A DNA stretch of 22,313 bases from positions 1-22,313 of IMG/VR virus record IMGVR_UViG_3300033571_014197; one strand, written 5' to 3'. Of this stretch, positions 14,465 through 22,313 are shown piece after piece; the stretch's first letter is position 1, and the number at the start of each line of letters is the position of its first letter. This DNA comes from a virus. Both the position numbers and the translations under genes were made by a program. A model generated the notes under the pieces. It saw only the letters and a list, made by a program, of their open reading frames with translations, had not been told where the DNA came from and did not search any database.

Positions 14465-15520
14465 ATGAACACCCGCCCCGACCTGCGCCTCATTCAGAGG
14501 ACTACCGACCTAGGAAACAAAAATCCCATACCGTCGAATAATACCCGGTGTAACGGTAGCCGTGGGGCGTGGGGAATGTTCGACGACTTAGATCAGTGGT
14601 TCGCTTTAAAATCGAAAAACACAGCCCGACAATACAGAAAAGCCCTCGAGGAGTTTTGCACCGTGTTTGCAATCGAGCAAACGGAAGAGGGCGCTGAACA
14701 ACTGAAAGGCGTGGGCCATACCGAGGTGACGCGCTTTACCAACTACCTGCGCACGCAACCGGCACAGCCGGGCAGGAGCTCGCTTATCTCCGACCGGGTG
14801 AGCCTGGCAACCGTCAAACACAAGCTCACGGTGCTGTGTAGCATCTGGGACGAGCTCATAAACCTTGGCGCTGTGCAAACAAACCCGTGGCGCAAACCTA
14901 AACGCGACATGATGCGCGTCAAAGGCAACGATAGGCGGCCGCATGAGCTCATCCCGTTCGAGGCGGTTCGAGAATTGTTTCAGCTCAACTTCTACGGACC
15001 CGACGGTGCTCGAGACAAGGCGCTCCTCGCTGCCCTGTTTGGCGGTGCGCTTCGGTTAAACGAGGCCATAGCGTTGCGCCTGTGCGACGTTAAAGAGGGG
15101 CAGGAGGGCGCCATCATCCTGACGTTACGCAATACCAAGCGCCAGCGTGCCGAGGATCAGGCCGTAGGCGCCTGGGCGGCCGTCCATATCCGGGCATACC
15201 TCGAGATGCGCAAGCGCGACGGGGCGCAAGACATCGATCCCCTGTTTACCAAGTACAAAGCCAACAAGCCCACCAACGAACTTTTGCTCGACCGCACCGT
15301 GCGCCGAGCGTTTACCATGTACATGCGGCGCGTTGGTTTGACCGGCAATTTTAGCCCGCACTGTGCCCGCGCGACCGCTATCACTAAGCTCCTGCAGGAC
15401 GGCGTACCGCACCGGGAAGTTATCAAGTTTAGTCGGCACTCAAGCATCGCGATGCTTGAGCATTACGACAAGCTGCGCCGCGCCCAATCAGATAACGTGG
15501 CGCAACTGCTAACCTTTTAA
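14465..15520 (+). CDS. int: Tyrosine integrase
   Basis: This 351-residue site-specific recombinase has an N-terminal core-binding domain (about residues 40-145, a SAM-like helical region with NTARQYRKALEEF) and a C-terminal catalytic domain. The likely catalytic set is complete: R197 (in GALRLNEA), K225 (NTKRQ), H299 and R302 (SPHCARAT), H325 (SRHSS) and Y334 (EHYDK). A lambda-type arm-binding domain is not obvious, although the first 40 residues are basic and poorly structured. Integrases usually lie next to attP; the intergenic repeats downstream (15589-15696) are candidates. An AAGGA ribosome binding site precedes the ATG. The gene should be active. Confidence 0.93.
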   Translation: MNTRPDLRLIQRTTDLGNKNPIPSNNTRCNGSRGAWGMFDDLDQWFALKSKNTARQYRKALEEFCTVFAIEQTEEGAEQLKGVGHTEVTRFTNYLRTQPAQPGRSSLISDRVSLATVKHKLTVLCSIWDELINLGAVQTNPWRKPKRDMMRVKGNDRRPHELIPFEAVRELFQLNFYGPDGARDKALLAALFGGALRLNEAIALRLCDVKEGQEGAIILTLRNTKRQRAEDQAVGAWAAVHIRAYLEMRKRDGAQDIDPLFTKYKANKPTNELLLDRTVRRAFTMYMRRVGLTGNFSPHCARATAITKLLQDGVPHREVIKFSRHSSIAMLEHYDKLRRAQSDNVAQLLTF

Positions 15521-20817: not shown

Positions 20818-21128
20818 AAACACCTAAGCAGATAACAGAGGAAGATTTAGAGTGGATGGACGCGCCGCTAGGCTCTATGAAGTCGGCGTATGTGGTCAAG
20901 CTCCCGCCGTTGCAGATAGGAGGGCGCATAAAGCTAGTGAGGATGCTGCGAAACCTTACCATGCGAGAGCTTGCAAGCAAGTGTGGGGTATCGCAGACGG
21001 CGATAATGAAGTGGGAGCAAGGGGAGGTCCCTCCTAACTCAAGTCGAATCACTCAACTATGCAAGGTGCTCAACATCCCTGTAGGGGTGCTGTTCGCTAG
21101 AAGGCTAAGTTTGCAAGCGGAGGAATAA
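20814..21128 (+). CDS. XRE-family HTH regulator
   Basis: This 104-residue protein contains a helix-turn-helix of XRE type in residues 36-95 (GGRIKLVRMLRNLTMRELAS, KCGVSQTAIMKWEQGEVPP, then ITQLCKVLNIPVGVLF). The first 13 residues (MKTPKQITEEDLE) do not belong to the domain. They resemble the N-terminus of the DUF551 protein that follows (MKTPEQMAEEYIE) at both protein and DNA level. It may regulate the early operon or its own promoter. The gene ends in a TAATG junction with the next. Confidence 0.8.
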   Translation: MKTPKQITEEDLEWMDAPLGSMKSAYVVKLPPLQIGGRIKLVRMLRNLTMRELASKCGVSQTAIMKWEQGEVPPNSSRITQLCKVLNIPVGVLFARRLSLQAEE

Positions 21129-21499
21129 TGAAAACACCTGAGCAGATGGCAGAAGAATATATTGAGAGCTTTAAAGGCGATAAGTCTATCCTTGGCGGCA
21201 AGATAGGGCTTAGTGCTTGTAGGCTCTCTTTCCTCGCTGGCTACAAAGCCGCGCAGGAGCATAATGCTGACGCCAGCAAAATGGTTTGGATCTCCGTGAA
21301 GGATAGGCTGCCGGAGAACAAGTACATCACTGTGCTTGTTCATTTTAGGGTGCCTGAAAGCAAGGCAAAACTGTATGGATTCGGGTACTGCGAAAGCGAT
21401 GGCCCAGTTACATGGTACGTTGATCATAATCGTTACAAGAGTCCGGTAGATGTCACCCACTGGATGCCGCTACCTGAGCCGCCAAAGGCTGAGAAATAA
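21128..21499 (+). CDS. DUF551 domain protein (long copy)
   Basis: This 123-residue protein has an N-terminal helical part (MKTPEQMAEEYIESF, then GLSACRLSFLAGYKAAQEHN), typical of many phage DUF551 proteins. The DUF551 domain proper runs from about residue 54 (WISVKDRLPENKYITVLV) to the end (THWMPLPEPPKAEK). It starts with one shared base after the XRE gene. It is the last gene of the plus-strand operon. The function is unknown; compare the short copy at 20614. Confidence 0.78.
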   Translation: MKTPEQMAEEYIESFKGDKSILGGKIGLSACRLSFLAGYKAAQEHNADASKMVWISVKDRLPENKYITVLVHFRVPESKAKLYGFGYCESDGPVTWYVDHNRYKSPVDVTHWMPLPEPPKAEK

Positions 21500-21511
21500 C
21501 ACCCGCGCCAC

Positions 21512-21547
21512 TGTGAAAAAATATAGTTCTGTTCACACGTATATTTT
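21512..21547. terminator. AT-rich hairpin between convergent operons
   Basis: AAAATATA (21518-21525) and TATATTTT (21540-21547) are a perfect 8-base inverted repeat with a 14-base loop, overlapping TGTGAA/TTCACA (21512-21517 and 21532-21537). A T-rich stretch follows. The site lies 13 bases after the last early gene and faces the tRNA operon, so it may end transcription from both sides. The remaining gap 21548-21771 holds only weak hairpins (such as GCTTTT/AAAAGC near 21599-21612) and no credible gene. Confidence 0.4.
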
Positions 21548-21771
21548 ATTTTGTCGGGGTTTGTGTATTACACTCCCTCGGCGCTACCGGTGGTACGGGC
21601 TTTTCAAAAAGCTAAATGCGAAGGTACGGTTTTTCGGTGAGTCCAAAGGGCTGTGACACGGCCAGCCACGCCGAGATAGGCTCGTACGGGCCGACAAGCC
21701 GCACATCTATTGAGCTTAGTCCATGCGAGCACGCCAGTTTGACCATCGGCACGCCTTTGTCCCTGAAAGAT

Positions 21772-21847
21772 TGGCTGATCGGGCAGGGCTCGAACCTGCA
21801 ACGAGGCGATTAACAGTCGCCCATTCTACCGATTGAATTACCGATCA
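21772..21847 (-). tRNA. tRNA-Asn (GTT anticodon)
   Basis: On the minus strand, 76 bases fold into a complete cloverleaf. The acceptor TGATCGG pairs with CCGATCA; the D arm is ATTC/GAAT with loop AATCGGTA; the anticodon stem GGCGA/TCGCC encloses CTGTTAA, with anticodon GTT; the variable loop is TCGTT; the T arm is GCAGG-TTCGAGC-CCTGC. Discriminator G and an encoded CCA (21774-21772) complete the 3' end. The sequence is related to, but clearly different from, bacterial tRNA-Asn of the E. coli type. The first three bases, TGA, are also the stop codon of the nuclease gene, so both should be on one transcript. Confidence 0.93.
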
Positions 21848-22117
21848 GTGCTTGGGCGATGTCGCCTCTATCGCCTCCTCAAGGCTGCGCACAACCGCTC
21901 GAGGACCGCGCCACCACTCGAAAAACGCCTTCTGCCCGTCGCTGAGTTTACCATTTGCGGTCTTAACTTCAACGAGGATGTTGTGATCCCCGTTCCCGAC
22001 GAGGAGATCCGGCGCATCCTGCCCGAGCCGATGGAGCGACAACACCGACCGCCCAACGGCACGCAAGCCGTCGGCGATCTCTTTGTGGTTGGCATCGACT
22101 CGAGCGGCGCGGCGCAT
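21845..22117 (-). CDS. PD-(D/E)XK nuclease (VRR-NUC-like)
   Basis: This 90-residue protein shows the catalytic pattern of small PD-(D/E)XK nucleases. E13 stands in the first helix, P36-D37 in DAPDLLVG, and E50-x-K52 in NILVEVKTANGKLSDGQ, followed by Q62. Small VRR-NUC-type enzymes in phages are expected to cut branched or single-strand/double-strand junction DNA; the exact substrate is not predictable. It may act in recombination or in resolving DNA before packaging. The start shares one base with the stop of the holin-like gene (TAATG), and the stop codon lies within the tRNA. Confidence 0.78.
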   Translation of the reverse strand: MRRAARVDANHKEIADGLRAVGRSVLSLHRLGQDAPDLLVGNGDHNILVEVKTANGKLSDGQKAFFEWWRGPRAVVRSLEEAIEATSPKH

Positions 22118-22313
22118 TACTTAGAGCTCAACACCCCACTGATTTGAGAGGTCGCTGTAACGCGCCCTAGGAGCGCCAACAACGCGCCCGCACCTGCGAG
22201 CCATGGTGTGACCTGGGGCGGTAGGAAACCCGAGCCTAAAAGCTGCTGTACAGTGTCAGATGCGGCAGGGAGGAGGGCGATCAACGCTCCCCAGAATGAT
22301 TTTGATGCGATCA
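22117..22313 (-). CDS. Holin-like membrane protein (5' part outside window)
   Basis: The frame enters from the right edge and ends at the TAA complementary to 22117-22119. Visible are 64 C-terminal residues with two hydrophobic segments: FWGALIALLPAAS, then WLAGAGALLALLGRV, and a short tail TATSQISGVLSSK. The pattern SKSFWGALIALL ... LLALLGRVTAT resembles a group of small phage holins with a conserved GR near the end of the last helix. Such proteins form the membrane holes that start lysis. A lysin gene would be expected upstream, outside the window. The gene overlaps the nuclease start. Confidence 0.6.
   Translation of the reverse strand, partial: IASKSFWGALIALLPAASDTVQQLLGSGFLPPQVTPWLAGAGALLALLGRVTATSQISGVLSSK

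Follow-up and report, generated by a model that had tools for sequence, protein, structure and literature searches.

A viral nuclease gene ends on the first three bases of a tRNA-Asn gene

In a virus record from IMG/VR, a small nuclease gene has a stop codon formed by the first three bases of a tRNA-Asn gene. We asked whether this overlap couples expression of the nuclease to processing of the tRNA, as a first-pass annotation of the sequence had proposed, or whether it is a consequence of tight gene packing. The window analyzed here is the whole record IMGVR_UViG_3300033571_014197, with a length of 22,313 bases. It encodes a portal protein, terminase subunits, a RecT-like annealing protein, and a tyrosine integrase (14465-15520), as identified by Pfam and PHROG matches, and this set of genes points to a tailed, probably temperate phage.

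Near the right end of the window, a small ORF, the nuclease, and the tRNA-Asn form a leftward group. The small ORF (22117..22311, minus strand), delimited from the sequence and the ORF list, is partial at the window end. Its Pfam match to DUF7940 is weak and below the cut-off, and it possibly encodes a membrane protein such as a holin. The stop codon of the small ORF overlaps the ATG of the nuclease gene in the sequence TAATG. The overlap shows the tight packing of the leftward operon and makes translational coupling of the two genes probable. A convergent DUF551 gene (21128..21499, plus strand; Pfam PF04448, E 2e-13) ends beyond the tRNA.

The nuclease, the tRNA, and their shared triplet

The nuclease gene (21845..22117, minus strand) encodes a protein of 90 residues, the translation of which ends with SPKH before the stop codon. 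The protein was assigned to small PD-(D/E)xK nucleases with a VRR-NUC domain based on a match to Pfam PF08774, which is a marginal pass (24.1 bits at a cut-off of 23.8, E 4e-5), and on PHROG matches to endonuclease and Holliday junction resolvase families. The PD-(D/E)xK catalytic residues are present as P36-D37 and E50-V-K52, and nine sequences share P36, D37, E50, and K52 without exception. Close relatives share 98-99% protein identity despite up to 29 differences in 270 bases. A sequence search for a relative of the nuclease in the PDB found none, and its bacterial homologues are represented by one distant match from a Flavobacteriaceae MAG.

The tRNA-Asn gene (21772..21847, minus strand; anticodon GTT) is the single tRNA identified by ARAGORN in the whole window, and the Rfam tRNA model RF00005 matches positions 21775-21847 with a score of 61.8 bits. 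The gene has the characteristics of a bacterial-type tRNA-Asn: a cloverleaf, the GTT anticodon, a U1-A72 pair, G73, and an encoded CCA end. The acceptor stem is composed of seven perfect base pairs (TGATCGG/CCGATCA) and is followed by GCCA. Two relatives, IMGVR_UViG_3300027805_000077 (L002) and IMGVR_UViG_3300042906_001457 (L005), also bear the tRNA, and 98.4% of cells are paired in the three tRNAs. The tRNAs of the window and L005 differ in 15 of 76 bases, all located in the D stem, anticodon arm, and variable region, whereas the acceptor and T arms are unchanged. Five pairs have changed on both sides between the two, and the preservation of the fold through these compensatory changes indicates a real, maintained tRNA, with transcription, maturation, and charging with asparagine predicted. 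Three related sequences are too few to attribute the lack of change in the acceptor stem solely to the stop codon.

The two genes meet in the sequence CCC AAG CAC TGA/TCGG, in which the slash marks the end of the nuclease gene. The shared TGA (21845..21847, minus strand) is the stop codon of the nuclease and, read from 21847 to 21845, bases 1-3 of the tRNA and the 5' end of its acceptor stem; a protein gene and a tRNA gene on the same strand have three bases in common. The first-pass annotation had placed the nuclease stop at tRNA positions 1-3, and ARAGORN, Rfam, and the ORF translation agree with it to the base. It had also called for a check of the conservation of the junction, which is identical to the base in L002 and L005.

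Relatives of the junction and overlaps at other viral tRNAs

In two further relatives, L003 and L004, the nuclease has 98% identity to that of the window and the same TGA is retained, without the tRNA. Their stop region reads CAT TGATCAGCC, in which TGATC corresponds to the start of the tRNA and GATCAGCC to its end. A deletion joining the two GATC copies, which lie at the base of the acceptor stem, would produce such a junction, although the string is short and may match by chance. Over the 270 bases of the nuclease gene, the window differs from L002 in 10 positions and L005 differs from L003/L004 in 14, whereas the distances across the two pairs are 26-29. Given these distances and the presence of the tRNA in the window, L002, and L005 only, the simplest history is that the cluster ancestor carried the tRNA, which was lost once in the L003/L004 lineage. 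As to the suggestion of the first-pass annotation that the tRNA may have integrated into the gene end, the pairwise differences favor the ancestral tRNA with a single loss. The nucleases of L006 and L007 are approximately 83% identical to that of the window; their genes have a different end, and the junction holds no tRNA. Since L003/L004 carry the nuclease without the tRNA, and L006/L007 carry it without a tRNA at the junction, the nuclease is independent of the tRNA, and its stop codon persists in L003/L004, where the tRNA is missing. The allele without the tRNA provides a clean natural comparison. Short junction patterns were found in 33 and 27 viral stretches, among which the nuclease was encoded only in the four contigs already known.

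On the side of the tRNA opposite the nuclease, gene content varies: the window has the DUF551 gene, L002 an HNH/recombinase-like gene, and L005 a different ORF of 110 aa. The HNH/recombinase-like gene (L002:3340-3798) is convergent, and its TGA is supplied by the 3' acceptor strand of the tRNA; in L002, the acceptor stem thereby ends protein genes on both strands. About 200 bases of the window (21571-21770), positioned between GTGTATT and the 3' end of the tRNA, are absent at the corresponding place in L005. The segment is an indel-prone convergent intergenic region.

To place the junction among other stop/tRNA overlaps, we surveyed mechanically 684 other viral tRNAs, the loci of which had been gathered by a tRNA-Asn pattern and are not a random sample. 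An upstream ORF on the same strand, at least 70 aa long and with its stop within 100 bases of the tRNA, was present for 174 of the 684. None of the 684 has an upstream ORF of at least 70 aa ending at bases 1-3, and only 17 of the 684 tRNAs start with a stop triplet. Stops straddling the first base of the tRNA or positioned inside it occur in 21 cases, or in 18 of 149 (~12%) after the removal of duplicate proteins, and the stops inside the tRNAs are mostly formed by the U8-A9-G10 triplet. Because of these counts, we regard the general overlap of stop codons with tRNA genes as ordinary in phages, and the exact form at bases 1-3 as less common. The recognizable genes with a stop inside a tRNA are from unrelated viral contigs and encode HNH endonucleases, a carbamoyltransferase, a JmjC-like protein, and a PD-(D/E)xK protein. 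HNH endonuclease genes end inside tRNA genes at L134:162-671, L222:7773-8411, and L176:6234-6710, and the PD-(D/E)xK endonuclease ORF L130:659-1106 ends inside a tRNA-Asn gene at U8-A9-G10. Phage genes on L134, L202, L206, L222, L130, and other contigs resemble that of the window in that the stop of a same-strand gene lies inside or straddles the 5' part of a tRNA. However, most of them use U8-A9-G10 or straddle the first base, whereas the window uses bases 1-3. No direct report of phage tRNA/stop overlaps emerged from literature searches.

Processing at the junction and competing explanations

The 5' ends of tRNAs are made by RNase P, and a transcript containing both genes that is cut at 21847/21848 is therefore expected to lose the nuclease stop and become a non-stop message. 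The statement of the first-pass annotation that maturation destroys the stop follows from RNase P chemistry, but its placement of the cut exactly at the stop is less certain: the C at position -1 can pair with G73, and RNase P could therefore cut one base earlier. C-1:G73 is the single possible pair between the leader and the RCCA sequence, which is below the two pairs reported as the threshold for slowing RNase P (PMC9433436). The leader of the window has A at -2 and that of L005 has U at -1, bases that are favored by E. coli RNase P (PMC9433436).

We found no sigma-70-like promoter in positions 21300-22313 and no intrinsic terminator near the junction. An A/T-rich inverted repeat at approximately 21515-21575 folds no better than shuffled sequences. 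Pairing is possible between the final 30 coding bases of the nuclease and the anticodon arm of the tRNA (21772-21877, minus strand). In the window, the resulting misfold is 11.5 kcal/mol more stable than the leader with the cloverleaf, a difference reached by 6 of 1000 synonymous leaders, and the pairing of the nuclease tail with the tRNA might link translation to tRNA folding. A conserved switch built on the misfold was rejected. The misfold is strong in the window but unexceptional in L002 and L005, and for this reason we treat it as lineage-specific or due to chance.

With high probability, the locus is a compact gene junction that closes a leftward phage operon at its downstream end, with the tRNA as the operon tail and without a regulatory role. 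The tRNA gene starts flush with the last nuclease codon, and its 5' TGA doubles as the stop. The tRNA would most likely be transcribed as the tail of the operon composed of the small ORF, nuclease, and tRNA-Asn, and ribosomes would complete the nuclease on nascent, uncut transcripts. Afterwards, the tRNA would fold, and RNase P would cut at or next to the stop and free it. The used nuclease message would decay or, if translated still, would be a non-stop message for host ribosome rescue. Synthesis of the nuclease and processing are probably successive in time, because translation can arrive at the stop while the tRNA is still incomplete, and the tRNA 5' end would be covered by a ribosome positioned at the stop. 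The overlap, the structurally conserved tRNA, the shared junction of the tRNA-bearing relatives, and the relatives with the nuclease and its stop but without the tRNA are observed directly, whereas we infer co-transcription, cutting by RNase P, the order of events, and the absence of a regulatory role. Counterpoints to the tight-junction explanation are that the sub-type at bases 1-3 is rarer than the general class of overlaps, and that the nuclease tail pairs strongly with the tRNA in the window, though not in the relatives.

It is quite unlikely that the overlap is a regulatory device, in which RNase P strips the stop, one transcript yields either the tRNA or full-length nuclease, and maturation of the tRNA lowers nuclease output. 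The geometry permits such a device, the junction is identical in three phages, the leader bases at -2 and, in L005, at -1 suit the E. coli enzyme, and the same mechanism was proposed for the tRNA-Sec nested in selB (PMC8124441). However, two equally close relatives keep the nuclease and TGA without the tRNA, more distant homologues end differently and have no tRNA at the junction, and three closely related phages are too few to show selection on the junction. Ribosomes can also be expected to finish the nuclease before the tRNA is fully transcribed. The coupling of nuclease expression to tRNA processing put forward in the first-pass annotation thus has no support. We consider very unlikely an extended form of control in which the shared TGA would be a one-way switch, with the nuclease made until RNase P removes the stop, and translation of the nuclease tail would free the tRNA from the leader misfold, so that the two genes control each other.

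An origin by integration is unlikely as well. In that case, the tRNA would either be transcribed from a promoter of its own within the nuclease gene or be part of an attachment site, and integration into a host tRNA-Asn gene would have brought it into contact with the stop as a side effect. In favor are the tyrosine integrase of the phage and the position of the tRNA next to the convergent, indel-rich intergenic region. However, the tRNA is complete and not a 3' part, and a search of 84,980 species genomes with a tRNA-Asn pattern containing this acceptor stem gave no match and hence no host tRNA, which makes an attachment-site origin less likely. The lack of sigma-70-like promoters at the locus speaks against a separate promoter if the host uses promoters of this type. 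The first-pass annotation had named a separate tRNA promoter, combined with different junctions in all relatives, as evidence against coupling; the junctions of L002 and L005 are the same as that of the window, and no sigma-70-like promoter was detected. It is extremely unlikely that the overlap results from chance or an annotation artefact, with the tRNA or nuclease ORF not being a real gene. The VRR-NUC match is just above the cut-off, but the nuclease has homologues with invariant catalytic residues and a protein sequence conserved despite the base differences, and the tRNA shows compensatory changes.

Comparison with known junctions of protein and tRNA genes

Among the closest known systems is selB/selC, in which the tRNA-Sec gene is nested in or overlaps the 3' end of selB (PMC8124441). 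It was proposed in 2021, and published as a hypothesis, that tRNA processing, by producing a non-stop message, represses the protein encoded upstream (PMC8124441). As in the window, the same-strand protein gene runs into the tRNA gene, processing would leave a non-stop message, and close relatives with and without the overlap exist in both systems. However, the ORF in selB-selC spans all or half of the tRNA and adds an extension to the protein, whereas in the window the stop codon alone is shared and no residue is added. The selB-selC overlap spans many genera, whereas the junction of the window is known in three close phages. The junction described here is thus a further case of a known arrangement, and the idea of a non-stop message has already been published for selB/selC.

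Operons of mRNA and tRNA cut by RNase P, such as secG-leuU of E. coli, were reportedly described by Mohanty and Kushner in 2008. They resemble the window in that a tRNA at the end of a protein-coding transcript is freed by endonucleases. The coding region and tRNA of secG-leuU are, however, separated, whereas those of the window have three bases in common. In the tRNA punctuation of mitochondria, excision of the tRNA defines the end of the upstream message, as it would in the window. The mitochondrial stop is often completed by polyadenylation, whereas the stop in the window is encoded in full, and cutting would remove it.

An overlap that did govern the nuclease level would be a very small case of a gene closed by RNA processing. 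As found, the junction mainly shows the compact packing of phage tRNA genes. Stop codons inside tRNA genes recur across phages, and cutting by RNase P may thus leave non-stop messages of their upstream genes.
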